DNA of 48,956 bases, taken from contig SKWO01000044.1 of NCBI GenBank assembly GCA_007128895.1, forward strand, positions 1 to 48,956, written 5' to 3'. This document shows positions 1,469 through 48,896 of the stretch, in pieces. The stretch comes from Gammaproteobacteria bacterium (GTDB taxonomy: Bacteria > Pseudomonadota > Gammaproteobacteria > SKWO01). A program made the translations under genes and the position numbers. How positions within the stretch are numbered: position 1 is the first letter of the stretch; every line of letters starts with the position of its first letter. Under the pieces are notes generated by a model that did not search any database, was not told where the DNA came from, and saw nothing but the letters and a program-made list of their open reading frames with translations.

Positions 1469-2971
1469 ATGGAACTGAAAGTGGTCGAGACGCCCAAGGA
1501 GCAGGGCGGTTGCAGCGCGAGTTCGTGTGGCGGCAGTGCCGATCAGTTGGCGCATCTGCCGGAGGCGATTCGCGAGAAGGTGAAGAACCATCCGTGCTAT
1601 TCGGAGCAGGCGCACCACCACTATGCGCGCATGCATGTGGCAGTGGCGCCGGCGTGCAATATCCAGTGCCACTACTGTAACCGCAAGTACGACTGCGCCA
1701 ATGAGTCGCGCCCCGGTGTGGTCTCCGAGCTGTTGACGCCGGAGCAGGCGGTGAAGAAGACCCTGGCCGTGGCGGCCAACATCCCGCAGATGACGGTATT
1801 GGGCATCGCCGGCCCCGGCGACCCGCTGGCCAACCCGGAGCGCACGCTGGCGACCTTCCGCGCCCTCAGCGAGCAGGCGCCGGACATCAAGCTCTGTGTC
1901 TCGACCAACGGCCTCGCGCTACCGGAGCTGGTCGATGAGCTGTGCCAGCACAACATCGATCACGTCACCATCACGATCAACTGTGTCGACCCGGATGTCG
2001 GCGCCAAGATCTATCCGTGGATCTTCTGGCAGGGTCGGCGCATCCGTGGGCGCAAGGCGGCGGAGATATTGATCGCGCAGCAGCAGAAGGGGCTGGAGAT
2101 GCTGACCGCGCGCGGGGTGCTGGTAAAGGTCAATTCGGTGATGATCCCCGGCGTCAATGACGAGCACCTGAAGGAGGTCTCCAAGGTGGTCAAGGCCAAG
2201 GGTGCCTTCCTGCACAACGTGATGCCGCTGATCGCCGAGGCCGAGCACGGCACCTTCTACGGGGTGATGGGTCAGCGCAGCCCGGATGCCGCCGAGCTGC
2301 AGGCGCTGCAGGATGCCTGTGCCGGTGACATGAACATGATGCGTCACTGCCGCCAGTGCCGCGCCGATGCGGTCGGCATGCTGGGTGAGGATCGCGGGGA
2401 TGAGTTCACCCTGGAGAAGATCGAGGCGATGGAGATCGACTACGCTGCAGCGATGGAGCGGCGCGCCGAGGTCCACGCCCGCATCGAGGCCGAACGGGCC
2501 GAGCAGGAGCGGGCCAAGGCCAGTGGCGGCAATGTCGCCTTCGTCTCGCTCGACAGCCTGCGTGCCAGGCCGCAGACGCCGAAGGCGCTGATCGCCGTCT
2601 CCACCCAGGGCGGCGGTGTGGTCAACCAGCACTTCGGCCACGCCCGCGAGTTTCTGGTCTATGAGGCGAGCGCGAACGGCGTGCGCTTCATCGGCCCGCG
2701 CCGGGTCGATGCCTACTGCAGTGGCGACGACACTTGCGGTGAGGCGGAGACGACCCTGCAGCGCACGATCAAGGTGCTGGAAGGCTGTGCTGGCGTACTC
2801 AGCGCCAAGATCGGCCTGCCGCCGTGGGAGGCGCTGGAGGCGGTCGGCATCCAGCCGAGCGGCGAGTACGCCTGGGAGCCGATCGAGGAGGCGGTGGCCG
2901 CCTTTTATCAGGAGCTGCTCAAGGGCGGTCACCTTGACCAGCGCGACGAGCGCACGCGGGAGGTGGCGTAA
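1469..2971 (+). CDS. nifB: Nitrogenase cofactor biosynthesis protein NifB
   Basis: Radical SAM enzyme of 500 residues that fuses two [4Fe-4S] clusters and inserts carbide to form NifB-co, the precursor of the FeMo cofactor. The radical SAM motif is Cys63-x3-Cys67-x2-Cys70, followed by Cys75 in NRKYDC. The N-terminal region CSASSCGGS is typical of NifB. From about residue 370 a NifX/NafY-like domain (VSTQGGGVVNQHFGHA) is fused, as in proteobacterial NifB. It heads the operon nifB, fdxN, two [2Fe-2S] ferredoxins and nifQ, and its TAA overlaps the next ATG by one base. The region upstream carries NifA, IHF and sigma-54 elements, so expression should be restricted to nitrogen-fixing conditions. 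Confidence 0.97.
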   Translation: MELKVVETPKEQGGCSASSCGGSADQLAHLPEAIREKVKNHPCYSEQAHHHYARMHVAVAPACNIQCHYCNRKYDCANESRPGVVSELLTPEQAVKKTLAVAANIPQMTVLGIAGPGDPLANPERTLATFRALSEQAPDIKLCVSTNGLALPELVDELCQHNIDHVTITINCVDPDVGAKIYPWIFWQGRRIRGRKAAEILIAQQQKGLEMLTARGVLVKVNSVMIPGVNDEHLKEVSKVVKAKGAFLHNVMPLIAEAEHGTFYGVMGQRSPDAAELQALQDACAGDMNMMRHCRQCRADAVGMLGEDRGDEFTLEKIEAMEIDYAAAMERRAEVHARIEAERAEQERAKASGGNVAFVSLDSLRARPQTPKALIAVSTQGGGVVNQHFGHAREFLVYEASANGVRFIGPRRVDAYCSGDDTCGEAETTLQRTIKVLEGCAGVLSAKIGLPPWEALEAVGIQPSGEYAWEPIEEAVAAFYQELLKGGHLDQRDERTREVA

Positions 2972-3270: not shown

Positions 3271-3555
3271 ATGGCCAAAGCCAATCTCACCTTCGCCGAT
3301 CTTGACCTTACCGTCTCTGTGCCGGTCGGCGTTCGCGTCATCGAAATCTCTGAAAAGGTCGGCTCCGGGCTGATCTACGGCTGCCGCGAAGGCGACTGCG
3401 GCACCTGCCTGATGAAGGTCATCAGCGGCGCCGACAACCTCTCCACCCCCTCTGTGGTGGAAGAGAAGGTGCTGCGCGACAACCATGCCGGGCGTGACAC
3501 CCGTCTGGCCTGCCAGGCGCAGGTGCTCGGCGACGTCACCGTCAAGCCGGCCTGA
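3271..3555 (+). CDS. Plant-type [2Fe-2S] ferredoxin in the nif operon (first)
   Basis: Ferredoxin of 94 residues with the plant/vertebrate-type pattern Cys38-x4-Cys43-x2-Cys46 and a distant Cys81. The beta-grasp fold is expected. It lies 21 bp after fdxN with a GAGGAAG Shine-Dalgarno. The likely role is electron transfer to nitrogenase or to cofactor assembly; the specific partner cannot be read from sequence. It is related to but clearly distinct from the next gene, which is longer between the cysteine motif and the last cysteine. Confidence 0.88.
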   Translation: MAKANLTFADLDLTVSVPVGVRVIEISEKVGSGLIYGCREGDCGTCLMKVISGADNLSTPSVVEEKVLRDNHAGRDTRLACQAQVLGDVTVKPA

Positions 3556-39385: not shown

Positions 39386-39728
39386 CCTTGGGCCGATTCG
39401 GGCCGAAAGCGGGTGCTGTCCGGTCTGGGGTAGGGCCTGTCGACGGACGCCGTAAACCCATCCATGGCGGGCTACGACGAACGGCTGGCACCCAACGTTC
39501 GACCCGGATCGGGGGAAGCCGTTGCGAGGGCGTGCATGGACAGGACGTCCATGCTCGAGCCTACATGGATGTATTCACGGCGTCCCTCGCAACGGCTTAC
39601 GCCGAGCCGGGCACGGCACCCAAACGGATGCGAGCCAGACAACCGATCAGAGCCCTGATCGCGGAAAAAACCAGCGAATTGGCACCCCCACAAGTTCGGC
39701 CCTGATCACGGAAGCCGTTGCGTGCAAT
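39386..39728. repeat. Gene-free region with structured intergenic repeats
   Basis: No credible gene. The core is 39516-39598: 15-bp perfect arms (39516-39530 and 39584-39598) flank two smaller hairpins, GCATGGAC/GTCCATGC (39534-39541, 39547-39554) and TACAT/ATGTA (39562-39566, 39569-39573). The segment 39564-39585 recurs in inverted orientation at 39445-39466 with 19 of 22 identities. GGAAGCCGTTGCG recurs directly at 39514-39526 and 39710-39722, and CCCTGATC(G/A)CGGAA recurs at 39653-39666 and 39700-39713. I recall similar CATGGATGTATTCACGGCG-type repeats from other gammaproteobacteria, so a dispersed non-coding family is likely. Confidence 0.7.
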
Positions 39729-41416: not shown

Positions 41417-42220
41417 TCAAAAGAACAATTGTGCCAGTTTTTCACCCGGCTCGGGAACCTTCATGAAGGCCTCGCCGACCAGGAAGGTATCGACGCCGGC
41501 GGCGCGCAGGCGCGCGACATCGTCTCGGGTGTGGATACCGCTCTCCGTCACAACCAGCGTCGACTGGGGAATCTGACTCAGCAGGTCGAGGGTCGTCTCC
41601 AGTCGGGTCTCGAAGGTGTGCAGGTTGCGGTTGTTGATACCGACCATATCGAGGCCCAACGACAGCGCCTGATCGAGCTCGTCACGGTCGTGCACCTCGA
41701 CCAGCACATCCATGCCCAGCTCGCGCGCCACGCTGTGGAGCTCGCCCAGCCGGGCCTGATCGAGCGCCGCCACAATCAGCAGCACACAGTCGGCACCCAT
41801 CGCCCGCGCCTCAAAGAGCTGCCACGGGTCGACGATGAACTCCTTGCGCAGTATAGGCAGGGCACAAGCGGCGCGGGCCTGGCGCAGGTAGTCGTCACTG
41901 CCCTGAAAGAAATCGATATCGGTCAGCACGGAGAGGCAGGCCGCGCCGTGGTCGGCATAGGAACGAGCGATCGCGACCGGATCGAAGTCGGGGCGGATGA
42001 TGCCACGGCTCGGTGACGCCTTCTTGACCTCGGCAATGACCGCCGCCTCACCCTTGGCCGCGCGTGCGCGCAACGCCGCCAGAAAGCCGCGCACCGGCGC
42101 TGCAGCGGCCGCCTGTTCACGCATCAGTCGCAGAGGAGTGATGGCGGAGCGGTCCGCTACCTCCTCGGCCTTGCGGCGCAGGATGGTACGCAGGATATCG
42201 GGATCAGAAGAAGCGGTCAT
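41417..42220 (-). CDS. trpC: Indole-3-glycerol phosphate synthase
   Basis: Tryptophan pathway TIM barrel of 267 residues, monofunctional without a TrpF domain. [34 protein letters not shown], and [13 protein letters not shown] are conserved. The ATG at 42220 gives [14 protein letters not shown] and overlaps the dgkA 3' end by 17 bp. The rest of the trp operon is not in the window. Confidence 0.96.
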
Positions 42221-42593
42221 ACAGGATGAATCCCCATACAGTGGCCACAAAGAGCAGCGAGAGAAAGACAGCGGCCGAGCCGATATCCTTGGCGCGACCC
42301 GAAAGCTCGTGGTGCTCGACGCCAATCCGATCGACCACCGCCTCGATCGCCGAGTTGACCAGCTCGACGATCAGCACCAGCAGCAGCGAGCCGAGCAGCA
42401 GCGCCCGCTCGACCCCGCTCTGCCCCAGCCACAGCGCAAGTGGCGCCAGAAAGAGTACAGCGATCAATTCGAGGCGAAAGGCCTCCTCGTAGCGCACCGC
42501 CGCACGCAACCCCTGCCATGAGTAGAGGGCCGCCATCACGACATGATACAGGCCGCGGTGGGCGGGCTTGTTGATCTCGGCGCCGTCTGCCAT
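42204..42593 (-). CDS. dgkA: Diacylglycerol kinase DgkA
   Basis: Small membrane kinase of 129 residues with three membrane helices that recycles diacylglycerol to phosphatidic acid. The signature [15 protein letters not shown] and the cytoplasmic [12 protein letters not shown] are conserved. The ATG at 42593 is chosen by family length. A possible extended -10 (TGGTATCAT, minus strand) lies at 42629-42637 region, so it may have its own promoter apart from the gcv operon. Confidence 0.94.
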
Positions 42594-42679
42594 CGCTCGA
42601 CTCCCTCGCCTTGCTACAAAAGGCGGCCATGATACCATCGGCGCCGCGACGGTTTCATGAAAAGCGATCTGCGCGCCCC

Positions 42680-44128
42680 TCAGGCCCTCGGTCGCCACGC
42701 CAGGTCGGGCTCGCGGGCCGCACGTACCTCATCAAAGCGCCGTACCGGCAAAGTGTACGGCGCCCCCTTGAGCTGCTCCGGCTGCGCCTGTGCCTCCTGC
42801 TCGATCGCCACCATCGCTTCGACGAAGGCATCCAGCGTCTCCAGGCTCTCGGTCTCGGTCGGCTCGATCAGCAGACACTCCGGCACCAGCAGCGGGAAGT
42901 AGGTGGTCGGAGCGTGCATACCGAAGTCGAGCAGCCGCTTGGCGTAGTCCATCGCCGTCACGCCGTGCGTCTTGGCCTGGCGCTTGAGGGTCACGATGAA
43001 CTCGTGGGTGGCGCGGCGGTGCGGGTAGGCCAGGTCGAAGCCGGCGGCACGCAGGCGCGCCATCAGGTAGTTGGCGTTGAGGGTGGCGTAATCGGCTACC
43101 CGCTGCATGCCGTCGCGGCCGAGTAGCCGCATGTAGACCCAGGCGCGCAGCAGCACGCCGACGTTGCCGGCAAAGGCGCCCATCCGCCCGATGGTCTGCG
43201 GCCGTTCACCGGCCTCGACCCAGCGCAATCCCGCCTCCCCCTGCGCCACCAGCGGTATCGGCAGAAAGGGCGCCAACCGCTCGCTGACTCCGATCGGTCC
43301 GGCACCCGGACCGCCGCCACCGTGCGGGGTGGAGAAGGTCTTGTGCAGGTTGATGTGGATGACATCGAAGCCCATGTCGCCCGGCCGCACCCGACCGAGA
43401 ATTGCGTTCAGGTTGGCACCGTCATAATAGAGCAGCCCACCGGCCTCGTGCACGATGCGCGACATCTCGGCGACCTTGCGTTCAAAGACGCCAAGGGTCG
43501 ACGGATTGGTCAGCATGATCCCGGCTGTCTGCGGGCCAACCGCCGCACGCAACGCCTCCAGATCGACATCGCCGTCACGGTCGGTCGGGATCTCGCGGAC
43601 AGTGTAGCCGCACATCGCCGCCGTGGCCGGGTTGGTGCCGTGAGCGGCATCGGGCACCAGGATCTCGCGGCGCACCGTGTCGCCGCGCGCCTCGTGGTAG
43701 GCGCGGATCATCGCCACCCCGGCAAACTCCCCTTGAGCGCCGGCCATCGGCGCCAACGAGAAGGCGCGCATACCGGTGACATCGCACAACATCTCCTGCA
43801 GCTCGAAGAGGCAAGCCAGCAGCCCCTGTCCCGCCTCGGCCGGTGCATGCGGGTGGTGGCCGAGGAAGGCCGGCTGCATCGCCAGTGTGTTGCAGACCCG
43901 CGGGTTGTACTTCATCGTGCACGAGCCGAGCGGGTAGAAGTGGGTGTCGATGGAGAAGTTCTTCTGCGACAGACGGGTATAGTGGCGCACCGCGTCGAGC
44001 TCACTCACCTCGGGCAGCGGCGGCGGCGAGGCGCGCAGCATCGCCGCCGGCAGCTCGCCGGTCGCATCGGTGGTGATGGCGTGGGCGCCGGCGCGACGGC
44101 CGGCGCGACTGCGTTCAAAGATCAGCAT
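42680..44128 (-). CDS. gcvPB: Glycine dehydrogenase (decarboxylating) subunit 2
   Basis: PLP-bearing half of the P-protein, 482 residues. The PLP lysine is Lys263 in [18 protein letters not shown]. With GcvPA it decarboxylates glycine and passes aminomethyl to GcvH. The P-protein is split here, unlike the single 957-residue GcvP of E. coli. It is the last gene of the gcv operon, separated from gcvPA by the metallo-hydrolase gene. Confidence 0.96.
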
Positions 44129-44143
44129 GCAGACTCCGCCGCT

Positions 44144-45085
44144 TTAGAAGAGGGTGGCCTCGACCTGCAGATAGGCGCGCGAGACGATCGCCCCCACGCC
44201 CTCCTGCAGATCGGGATAGTAGGTCTCGAAGTGGGCCATCTCGGTACGCGCCGTCTCGGCCACCTCGAAGTCGAGCTGACCGGCCTCGAAGCCGGCCTCG
44301 GCCAGCGCCCAGACGGTCTCGAAGAAGTCGCGCTGGCGGACCAAGGTGGCACCGTCACCCACGTTGCCGTGGCCGGGCACAACGACCTCGGCACCGAGTG
44401 CCTCGAGTCGATGCAGAAAGTCGATCCAACCCGGGATGTCGGCGTCGAAGGTGCCGGGCAGACGCCCTTCATAGACCGCATCGGCGGCCAGCAGCACCTG
44501 ATGGTCGGGCAGCCACAACGCCATGTCGCCCGGCGAATGGGCGTGCTCAGCCACCAGCATCACGGTGCGCACGCCGCCAAAGCTGCGCTCCGTGTCCTGG
44601 TCGATGGTGGTCTCGGGCACCACCACCCGCACCGAGCCGATCGCGCCGCCGGTCATGCGGTTGAAGTCGTCGATCCAGCCCTGACCGCCTTCGGCAATCA
44701 GATCGCGGGTCGTCGTGGTGGCGATGACCTCCGTGCCGGCCTCCTCCATCAGGGCAGCGGTGCCCATCCAGTGGTCACCGTGGGCATGCGAGTTGATGAT
44801 CCAGCGGATCGGGGCATCGGTGACCTGGCGGATCTGCTGTCGCAGCGCCTCGCCAATTGCCTCGGAAGAGCCGGTGTCGAAGACCAGCACGCCGTCATCG
44901 GTCACGATAAAGGCGAGGTTGGAGTTCCAGCCCTGGTTGGCCTCGCTGGGAAAGTCGAGCGAACCGCTCAGCACGGCATAGACATTGGGCGCCACCTCTT
45001 GCGCCTGCATCTCGAAGCGGTCGGCGGCATACGCCGCCAGCGGCAGCCACAACGCCAGCAGCACGGTCAGTCGAAATCCTCTCAT
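44144..45085 (-). CDS. Exported metallo-beta-lactamase-fold hydrolase in the gcv operon
   Basis: 313 residues. A signal peptide is visible (MRGFRLTVLLALWLPLAAYA, cleavage after AYA). The metal motif His100-x-His102-x-Asp104-His105 (SHAHGDHWMG) is followed by EHAHSPGD and VPGHGNVGD, so a binuclear zinc site is expected in the periplasm. It resembles SoxH-like or quinoprotein-associated hydrolases rather than true beta-lactamases. AAGGAG lies eight bases before the ATG at 45085. It sits between gcvPA (26 bp upstream) and gcvPB (15 bp downstream), so it should respond to glycine with them. Substrate unknown. Confidence 0.88.
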   Translation of the reverse strand: MRGFRLTVLLALWLPLAAYAADRFEMQAQEVAPNVYAVLSGSLDFPSEANQGWNSNLAFIVTDDGVLVFDTGSSEAIGEALRQQIRQVTDAPIRWIINSHAHGDHWMGTAALMEEAGTEVIATTTTRDLIAEGGQGWIDDFNRMTGGAIGSVRVVVPETTIDQDTERSFGGVRTVMLVAEHAHSPGDMALWLPDHQVLLAADAVYEGRLPGTFDADIPGWIDFLHRLEALGAEVVVPGHGNVGDGATLVRQRDFFETVWALAEAGFEAGQLDFEVAETARTEMAHFETYYPDLQEGVGAIVSRAYLQVEATLF

Positions 45086-45111
45086 GGCGGTCACTCCTTG
45101 GTTTTTGTTGT

Positions 45112-46470
45112 TCAAAGAATAGCGGCCAGCGCTGTGGCATAGGCCGCGATCTCGTCCTCGCTGCGCAGCTCCGTGGCGCAGACCAGCAGGGCACCCTCGC
45201 CCAGTTCGGGGTAGTCGTGGCCCAGCGCCACGCCACCGAGGATGCCACGGTCGGCCAGCGCGGCCAGCACGGTCGGGGCGGGGCGCGGCAAACGCACCGC
45301 ACACTCATGGAAGACCGCACTGCCGAAGATCGGTTCCACCCCGTCGATCGCGGTCAGCGCATCACGCAGGCGCAGCAGGTTGGCGTGGCTGGCTCGGGCG
45401 ACATCGGCCAGCCCCTGCGGCCCCATGATCGCCATATAGAGGGTCGCCGCGGTCGCCATCAGCCCCTGATTGGTGCAGATATTGGAGGTCGCCCGTGAAC
45501 GGCGGATGTGCTGCTCCCGCGCCTGCAGGGTCAGGACAAAGCCGGGGCGACCGTCGGCGTCGGTCGCCCGTCCGACGATGCGCCCCGGCATCTGGCGCAC
45601 GTGGTCGTGGCGACAGGCGAGGAAGCCGACGTAGGGGCCGCCCCCGGCCAGCGGTATTCCCAGCGGCTGCCCCTCGCCGCAGGCGATATCGGCTCCCTGC
45701 GCGCCCCACTGACCCGGCGGGCGCAACAGGGCCAGTGCGGTCGGGTTGACCGCGGCGATGGCCAACGCACCGTCAGCGTGGGCGCGATCGACCAGCGCAT
45801 CCACCGCCTCGATGGCACCGAAATAGTTCGGCACCACCACCACCAAGGCTGCATAGGGTGTCGCGGCCGCCTGCTCCAGCGCCGCCATATCGACAGTGCC
45901 GGTGGCCGCTTCGAAGGGCAGCAGCTCCAGCTCGATGCCCTGGGCGGAGACCAGGGTACGGACGCAGTCGCGCCACGCCGGCGACAGCGCCGCCGGCAGC
46001 AGCACCCGCTTGGCGGACGACTTGCGGTTGGCACGTACCGCCATCAATATCGCCTCGGCCAGAGCCGTCGCCCCGTCGTAGAGCGAGGCGTTGGCGACAT
46101 CAAGGCCGGTCAGACCGGCGATCATGCTCTGGAACTCGTAGACCGTCTGAAGGGTACCTTGGCTCGCCTCCGGCTGATACGGGGTATAGGCGCTGTAGAA
46201 CTCGCCCCGGGTGGTGATCTCCCAGACCGCTGCAGGGATATGGTGGTCGTAAGCGCCGCCACCGGCAAAGCAGACCAGCGGGCGCTGCTGCTGTGCCCGC
46301 TGACGTGCCAGCTGGCTGACCCCCATTTCACTCAGCGCCGGTGGCACGCGCTCCCCCACGGAGGAGCGCAACGCCGGCGGGATCTCGTCGAACAGGGTCT
46401 CGATGCGGTCGACGCCGATGGCGTCGAGCATGGTACGCACCTCTTCGGCGGTGTGCGGAATGAACGGCAT
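45112..46470 (-). CDS. gcvPA: Glycine dehydrogenase (decarboxylating) subunit 1
   Basis: N-terminal half of the split P-protein, 452 residues. [20 protein letters not shown] and [41 protein letters not shown] are family signatures (given here in part). It lacks the PLP lysine, which is in GcvPB. The start overlaps the gcvH stop by one base. Confidence 0.96.
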
Positions 46471-46862
46471 CAGCTCTCCTCGGCGACCAGCGCGGCGTAG
46501 CCGTCGGCATCGAGCAGACCGTCGAGCTCGGACGGATCGTCCGGGCGCATGACGAAGAGCCAGCCGTCGCCAAACGGATCGCTGTTGAGCAGCTCCGGGG
46601 CATCGACCACGGCATCGTTGCTCTCAACCACCTCACCGGCGATCGGGGCGTAGACGTCGGAGGCGGCCTTGACCGACTCGACCACGGCGCACTCCTCGCC
46701 GGTGGCGAGCTGGCGCCCGCTCTCGGGCAGCTCGACAAAGACCATGTCCCCCAGCAGCCCCTGGGCATGCTCGGTGATGCCGATACGCACGGTGCCATCC
46801 GCCTGCGGCTGGATCCACTCGTGCTCCTTGCTGTACTTCAGTTCTGCCGGAATCGTGCTCAT
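46470..46862 (-). CDS. gcvH: Glycine cleavage system H protein
   Basis: Lipoyl carrier of 130 residues. The lipoylated residue is Lys65 in [13 protein letters not shown]. The family start is [16 protein letters not shown] at 46862; the frame continuing to 47045 lies over gcvT. It is lipoylated by the pathway whose last enzyme, LipA, is the first gene of this operon. Confidence 0.97.
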
Positions 46863-46866
46863 CTTG

Positions 46867-47976
46867 CTACTCCTTGCTGCTGGGTTTGACCTGCTCTGAC
46901 GCCGACCCTTGAGTGGGCCGGACAAACGGTATCTCCACCACATCGACGGCCTGACGTCGACCGCGAATCTCGACCTCCAAGCCCTGCGTCGCGACACCCC
47001 GCTCAACCCGGGCCAGACCGATGGCGCAACCGAGGGTTGGGGCAAAGCCGCCGCTGGTCAGTTGCCCAACGGCCTGTTCGCCGACGAAGAGCGGCTGCCC
47101 CTCACGCAGTACACCGCGCCCCTGCAGCCGTACCCCGATGCGCTGACGGGCCACGCCGGCCTCGCGCTGGGCGACCAGTGCCGCCCGACCGATAAAGTCG
47201 CGCGTTTCAGGCTGCCAGGCCACGGTCCAGCCCAAGCCGCTCTCCAGCGGGGTGGTGCTGCGATCCATGTCGTGGCCGTGCAGGTTGAGGCCGGCCTCCA
47301 GGCGCAGGGTATCGCGGGCACCCAGGCCGCACGGCTGCACCCCCAGGGCCAGCAACGCCCGCCACAGCTCGGCCGCCTGCGCCGCCGGCACGGCGATCTC
47401 GCTGCCGTCCTCGCCAGTGTAGCCGGTACGGGCGATGAACCGCTCGCCGTGGCTGACGCCGCGAAAGCGGCCGGGCAGCGCCAGCTCCGGCCACAGGGTG
47501 GTCAGCCGCGCCAACGCCTGCGGCCCCTGCAGCGCGAGCAGCGCGAGGTCGTCGCGCACCTGCCATGTCACATCATGGCCGGCCTGCTGCTGCGCCATCC
47601 AGGCCAGATCGGCCTCACGGTTGCCGGCGTTGAGCACCAGACGGTAGTGGTCCTGGCCTAGATGGTAGACGATCAGATCGTCGATCACCCCCCCATCCTC
47701 ATCCAGCATGCAGCTGTAGAGGGCGCGACCGGGGTCGTCGATCCGGGCCACGTCGTTGGCCAGCAGGGACTGCAGCCAGCGACGGGCGTCGGCACCGCGA
47801 AGGTCGACCAGGGCCATGTGGGAGACGTCAAACAGCCCACTGTCACGCCGCACCGCGTGGTGCTCATCGATCTGCGAGCCGTAGTGGAGCGGCATGACCC
47901 AGCCGGAGAACGGCACCATGCGCGCACCCAGGGCCTGATGCTCGGCCAGCAGGGGGGTCTGTCTCAAATCACTCAT
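46867..47976 (-). CDS. gcvT: Aminomethyltransferase (T protein)
   Basis: Folate-dependent enzyme of 369 residues that transfers the methylene from GcvH to tetrahydrofolate and releases ammonia. [24 protein letters not shown] and [22 protein letters not shown] are typical (partial motifs). The start overlaps the lipA stop by 4 bp. Confidence 0.97.
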
Positions 47977-48896
47977 TCGGCGCTCTCGGCATGGTAGGAG
48001 GAGCGCACCAGCGGACCACTGCGTACCCAGCTGAAGCCGAGTGTCAGCGCCTCGTCACGCCAGCGGTCGAAACGCTCCGGAGCCAGGTACTCAAGCACCG
48101 GCAGGTGGCGCGGCGTCGGCCGCAGATACTGGCCGATCGCCAGCCGGGTCACCCCATGGTCGCGCAGATCACACAGTACCGCGCGCACCTCGTCGTCGCG
48201 CTCGCCCAGCCCCAGCATCACCGCCGACTTGGCCTCGACACCGGGCAGTGCGGCGACCTGCCGCAACAGGTCGAGGCTGCGCTGATAACGGGCGCCACGG
48301 CGCGCCTCGCGGTAGAGCGACGGCACCGTCTCGACATTGTGGCCCCAGACCAGCCGCGTGGTGCCATCGGCTCGAAGCGGCAGGGCCGCATCGATGGTCG
48401 CCACGGCCGCCGCTTCGCACTGGCGAAAGTCGGGCGTCAGGATCTCCAGCCCCGCCTCGGGCAGGGCCGCGCGCAGCGCGCGCAGCGTCGCGGCGAACTG
48501 GGCCGCGCCGCCGTCGGCCAGATCGTCCCGGTTGACCGAGGTGAGCACGATGAAGTCCAGCCCGAGGCTGCGCGCCGCCTCGGCGACCCGGCGCGGCTCG
48601 TCCGGATCGGCCGGCAGCGGCTGCCCGGTGGCCACGGCGCAGAAGGCACAGGCGCGGGTACAGGTCTCGCCGAGGATCATGAAGGTCGCCGTGCCACGTC
48701 CCCAGCACTCGCTGCGGTTGGGGCAACGCGCCTCCTCGCAGACGGTGTGCAGCTGACGCTGGTGGACGGCGCTCGCCGTGGCGCCATACCCCTCGGCCGG
48801 CAGACGGATACGAAACCACGGCGGCAGGCGCCCGCTGTTGGGGCTTCCGCTGTGGTCGAAATAGGGGGTAGCGTGGTGGGGGGTGGCGACTGACAT
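47973..48896 (-). CDS. lipA: Lipoyl synthase LipA, first gene of the gcv operon
   Basis: Radical SAM sulfur insertase of 307 residues. The auxiliary cluster ligands are Cys53, Cys58, Cys64 and the radical SAM ligands Cys79, Cys83, Cys86. The C-terminal Arg-Ser-Ser motif (VRSSYHAE) supplies the serine ligand of the auxiliary cluster. It completes octanoyl-GcvH to lipoyl-GcvH. No lipB is adjacent. Its start lies two bases after a GGAGAG that may be exposed or hidden by the upstream riboswitch. Confidence 0.96.
   Translation of the reverse strand: MSVATPHHATPYFDHSGSPNSGRLPPWFRIRLPAEGYGATASAVHQRQLHTVCEEARCPNRSECWGRGTATFMILGETCTRACAFCAVATGQPLPADPDEPRRVAEAARSLGLDFIVLTSVNRDDLADGGAAQFAATLRALRAALPEAGLEILTPDFRQCEAAAVATIDAALPLRADGTTRLVWGHNVETVPSLYREARRGARYQRSLDLLRQVAALPGVEAKSAVMLGLGERDDEVRAVLCDLRDHGVTRLAIGQYLRPTPRHLPVLEYLAPERFDRWRDEALTLGFSWVRSGPLVRSSYHAESAE

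Follow-up and report, generated by a model that had tools for sequence, protein, structure and literature searches.

An important question at this locus is why a gene for an apparently exported hydrolase should lie within an operon for glycine cleavage, and whether the two are functionally connected. The window, i.e. the whole stretch of 48,956 nucleotides analysed here, is an entire contig (C72) of a gammaproteobacterial genome that is 81% complete, and includes just 60 bp of the sequence upstream of lipA. On its minus strand it carries the genes lipA–gcvT–gcvH–gcvPA–MBL–gcvPB, in this order, where MBL stands for a 313-codon reading frame with an ATG start (44144–45085) encoding a predicted exported MBL-fold hydrolase.

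The first gene, lipA (lipoyl synthase, 47973–48896; TIGR00510, 349.8 bits, cut-off 310), overlaps by 4 bp with gcvT (aminomethyltransferase, 46867–47976; TIGR00528, 401 bits, cut-off 236), which is followed by gcvH for the lipoyl carrier (46470–46862; Pfam GCV_H, 150.9 bits), gcvPA for the N-terminal half of glycine decarboxylase (45112–46470; NF001696, 579.8 bits, cut-off 364) and, beyond MBL, gcvPB for the C-terminal half (42680–44128; NF003346, 724 bits, cut-off 441). The four gcv genes, co-directional and adjacent, thus constitute a glycine-cleavage operon with a split P-protein. MBL separates the two halves with the tight spacing that the preliminary description had reported, starting 26 bp from the gcvPA stop and ending 15 bp before the gcvPB ATG, and it does have a ribosome-binding site of its own (AAGGAG, 45094–45099, minus strand, 8 nt 5' of the ATG). 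Its GC3 of 0.85 equals that of its operon neighbours (0.84–0.87), so that MBL shows no sign of having been acquired recently from a foreign source. A simple scan detected neither a terminator between lipA and gcvPB nor an internal promoter in the operon, and its sole promoter-like match (42629–42658) lies downstream of gcvPB; a separate promoter, which the preliminary description had named as an argument against its own view, was therefore not seen. By its placement, MBL is probably co-transcribed with the gcv operon. A gene for a diacylglycerol-kinase-like membrane protein, named by sequence reading, lies 3' of gcvPB (42204–42593, minus strand), as it does in several relatives.

Elsewhere in the window, an integron integrase gene lies at the contig start (207–1181, minus strand; TIGR02249, 482 bits, cut-off 265) beside a perfect 15-bp inverted repeat (176–205), and its cassettes, if there are any, would be located off the contig. 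It is followed by nifB (1469–2971, plus strand; TIGR01290, 662 bits), which suggests that the organism fixes nitrogen and adjoins a reading frame that reads as ferredoxin-like (3271–3555). A 28-nt inverted repeat with 89% complementarity (39503–39611) is situated between a coq7-like reading frame and the gene for S-adenosylmethionine decarboxylase.

Is this operon controlled by glycine? A riboswitch upstream of the operon had been proposed, and what the window itself holds of it is its 3' tail: the final 30 nt of the contig (TCTCTCAGGTGTCAAGACAGAGGGGCGGCA; 48927–48956, minus strand) correspond to positions 65–94 of the 94 positions of the glycine riboswitch model RF00504, i.e. an aptamer severed by the contig end, which in this 5'-truncated form scores 13.8 bits against a gathering score of 32 (cmscan, Infernal). 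The pattern CTCAGGTNNNAAGACAGAGGGG, which was derived from the riboswitch site itself, would be expected to match by chance 0.01 times in the window. The same 30 nt closely match the second of the aptamers that precede lipA in two related operons (L024, L042), and complete tandem glycine riboswitches were found just upstream of lipA or gcvT in five related operons that contain MBL (L024, L038, L039, L041, L042). Searching the window's own genome for a glycine riboswitch gave a negative result, with the aptamer there cut by the contig end. The proposed riboswitch is thus well supported by its tail and its intact counterparts in relatives, with just the final 30 nt lying inside the window, and MBL expression is likely to be controlled by glycine.

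The MBL protein itself passes the gathering cut-off of Pfam Lactamase_B (PF00753) with 81.9 bits against 22.7, and its N-terminus (MRGFRLTVLLALWLPLAAYA|AD) has the layout of a Sec signal by hydropathy and n-region charge, with a signal peptide predicted for residues 1–20 (45026–45085, minus strand) and cleavage at AYA|AD. This bears out the exported MBL-fold enzyme of the preliminary description at the level of prediction, and the full HxHxDH motif claimed there is indeed present as HAHGDH (residues 100–105; 44771–44788, minus strand). In the alignment all residues of the metal site are in place (H100, H102, D104, H105, H183, D202 and H239), and six of these, i.e. H102, D104, H105, H183, D202 and H239, are invariant across 13 MBL homologues; the protein thus probably binds metal and acts as a hydrolase. 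In the MBL of one relative (G088; L042 8992–9957, minus strand; L035), Ser replaces the first His of the motif, so that the metal site may have changed in this lineage. An AlphaFold2 model, built on a thin alignment of four sequences (the window protein and L020–L022), reached a pLDDT of 86.7, with residues 1–22 below 50, and the Foldseek matches listed for it are MBL-fold throughout.

Within this fold, the closest solved structure is a distant one, the MBL superfamily protein 8d2z of Burkholderia cenocepacia (1.2e-23 by sequence; TM 0.75 and 26% identity by fold), the title of which gives no function and in which the aligned motif reads HYHAVR rather than the canonical HxHxDH. Chlorothalonil hydrolytic dehalogenase (6uxu) is similar in fold and length (TM 0.73), but shares 21% identity and is a specialised xenobiotic dehalogenase. 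The carbapenemase CphA is also among the closest solved structures and, together with fold matches to Sfh-I and VIM and a weak subclass B1 score, raises the question whether MBL might be a resistance enzyme, i.e. a B1/B2-type metallo-beta-lactamase. This is extremely unlikely, since the B1 score is 74.8 bits where 200 would be required (54.5 against 240 for B2) and, in the alignment with CphA, the position of the metal-ligand Cys of B1/B2 enzymes (Cys221) is occupied by D202, an Asp that is invariant in the family, and we have rejected this identity. The glyoxalase II model (gloB, TIGR03413) likewise gave just 34 against a cut-off of 200.8.

The nearest curated models are those of the SoxH and quinoprotein relay zinc metallohydrolases, which are likewise exported MBL-fold proteins. 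TIGR04558 (183.1 bits) and TIGR04559 (155 bits) are the top NCBIfam models for MBL and match all 13 homologues, and the SoxH-like PP_2678 of P. putida lies within the ped cluster (PMC12997753), which would fit a role for MBL in supporting periplasmic quinoprotein dehydrogenases. The scores, however, fall well short of the curated thresholds of 300 and 280, respectively, the context is glycine cleavage here and alcohol oxidation there, and no PQQ alcohol dehydrogenase (TIGR03075) exceeded its cut-off in the six genomes with MBL in the gcv operon (the window's, 81% complete, among them), which yielded weak partial matches only; the model for a fused SoxYZ carrier reached its cut-off in G088 only. 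With the partner dehydrogenase missing and the scores insufficient, membership in the relay was rejected as an identity, and we regard it as very improbable. SoxY was found in 8 of 9 genomes bearing MBL as compared to 190 of 369 in the class (Fisher p ~0.02, uncorrected for kinship), and was not found in the window's genome, as far as that is complete (81%); this enrichment is a weak hint toward sulfur-oxidising lineages.

Is MBL then an accident of one strain? Among 369 genomes of the same class, homologues at E <= 1e-60 are sporadic, being present in nine, and in six of these (G000, G019, G131, G109, G226 and G088), which represent five families, MBL occupies precisely the junction of gcvPA and gcvPB and has the same direction as these genes. 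The preliminary description had proposed looking for the same insertion in related genomes, and its recurrence in one slot across five families shows that it is not confined to a single strain. Identity with the window's MBL is 60% over 311 residues in G019 and 43–49% in the other four slot orthologues. A search across the phylum at the same threshold added one homologue (G667), again from the same class, and none beyond it among the genomes sampled. All six slot-resident proteins have a predicted export signal, which in four (G131, G109, G226 and G088) includes a lipobox (LVAC or LSAC), so that export seems to have been kept by means of two types of signal; we infer a soluble periplasmic product in the window's organism and a lipoprotein in these four.

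Homologues also occur elsewhere. A scan of named genomes yielded three clear ones outside of gcv operons (in Cocleimonas and two MAGs) and one weak partial match, and control by glycine is thus not essential to the function of the protein. Next to one stand-alone homologue, a reading frame (L021 6990–7472, plus strand) resembles, by sequence reading, an exported four-helix copper-storage (Csp) protein.

The slot between gcvPA and gcvPB has a more common occupant. Mapping gcvPA and gcvPB in the class sample gave 115 listed genomes in which they share a contig and a strand; the two genes are adjacent (<150 bp) in 37 of these, and separated by 450–1000 bp in 64. A gene for thiol peroxidase was present in 68 of 70 gap regions fetched, with three examples scoring 225–238 bits for NF001808 (cut-off 123). 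Altogether, tpx occupies the slot in about 72 of the 115 surveyed split-P operons (L104–L173; L024, L038, L039 and L041), including four with both tpx and MBL, a fraction that is approximate because the count was built on the best-scoring matches listed. The split itself is therefore not unusual. Most surveyed gammaproteobacterial split-P operons thus have tpx as the usual occupant of the slot, and MBL, which belongs to an unrelated protein family, is a rarer second one; in four of the six slot-resident cases, tpx directly precedes MBL. In the window's genome, in its 81% complete state, tpx was not found. Glycine-riboswitch gcvT–gcvH–gcvPA–gcvPB operons of Pseudomonadota share the core genes and tandem riboswitch control with the operon described here, but the available part of their description (PMC12452182) mentions no further gene separating gcvPA from gcvPB, where we find MBL here and tpx in many relatives. 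The literature that we searched gave no description of either gene in this position, and it appears that tpx, and sometimes an exported MBL, are part of the glycine-cleavage transcript of many Gammaproteobacteria, possibly a previously unreported arrangement.

Such a frequently occupied junction could, however, simply tolerate genes, in which case MBL would have no functional tie to glycine and be glycine-regulated incidentally. Unrelated genes do occur in the slot once each, i.e. a BglII-like endonuclease with an MT-A70 methylase (L166), a histidine kinase with a response regulator (L167) and a Uma2 nuclease (L104), and this reading would also accommodate the MBL homologues located elsewhere in other genomes. 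The trees bear on both sides of the argument. A single clade for the MBL hosts is rejected by the combined GcvPA and GcvPB tree (p = 1e-7), which fits a permissive junction, whereas the MBL tree allows the copies in the slot to have one origin, a single clade not being rejected for them (AU p = 0.46). Moreover, the other inserts are single cases, whereas MBL occurs in five families, always in operon orientation and mostly with short spacing, and 6 of 10 close copies are found in this one slot, although chance would place a gene in a given ~1-kb stretch of a 3-Mb genome with a frequency of ~1/3000. We consider a merely tolerant junction quite possible, its likelihood being close to that of a functional link.

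With a single clade rejected for the hosts and one origin allowed for MBL, the gene must have moved between lineages or been lost often. Trees of GcvPA, GcvPB and Tpx all group G131 firmly with G340, a genome of the same genus with tpx but not MBL in the slot. (The slot of G244 is a run of 100 N, and the absence of MBL there was left out of the evidence.) Either the slot contained MBL ancestrally and many lineages then lost it, or MBL was passed from one operon to another, for which recombination in the flanks that they share is a possible route.

If a functional link exists, what could MBL do? We favour, at about even balance between being right and wrong, a real and recurrent accessory gene of the riboswitch operon that provides an exported, glycine-coupled hydrolase with a protective role beside tpx. 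In this scheme, the operon lipA–gcvT–gcvH–gcvPA–[tpx]–MBL–gcvPB would be under riboswitch control, and read-through at the riboswitch would couple MBL expression to glycine excess. The product would operate outside the cytoplasm with a metal site of the glyoxalase-II/SoxH type (HxHxDH, H, D, H), clearing a thioester, lactone or sulfur conjugate and thereby complementing the peroxidase that shares its slot. It is this likeness in metal site and fold that suggests, by analogy, a hydrolase of thioesters, lactones or sulfur compounds; in the protein sequence, no features were found that point to a particular substrate. Any assignment of substrate and physiological role is thus a guess, and so is the earlier suggestion of a substrate that yields or derives from glycine or C1 units.

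A different protective function could be directed at glycine toxicity, with MBL acting on cell-wall material that contains glycine in place of D-alanine. Predicted export and predicted glycine control would suit such a task, and MBL is presumably related to enzymes that cleave D-Ala-like amides, but its sequence showed none of the features of a peptidoglycan enzyme, and we find this idea very doubtful. In a more far-reaching version of the accessory hydrolase proposed above, which we regard as unlikely but worth stating, the slot would be a conserved 'protective module' of the gammaproteobacterial glycine regulon, with tpx and, in some lineages, exported MBL made in step with glycine cleavage under riboswitch control, and MBL acting outside the cytoplasm on a thioester or sulfur compound that arises at high glycine, C1 or lipoyl flux.

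If true, the glycine response would have a branch that has not been described so far. Surveys of glycine-riboswitch regulons list genes for the metabolism and transport of glycine and for serine metabolism (PMC3766115, PMC12452182), and the presence in the same transcript of an exported hydrolase and, across many lineages, of a thiol peroxidase would extend glycine sensing to redox defence and to the periplasm. Excess glycine, as the predicted inducing condition, could thus become a concrete starting point for finding a phenotype of this uncharacterised SoxH-like MBL clade.
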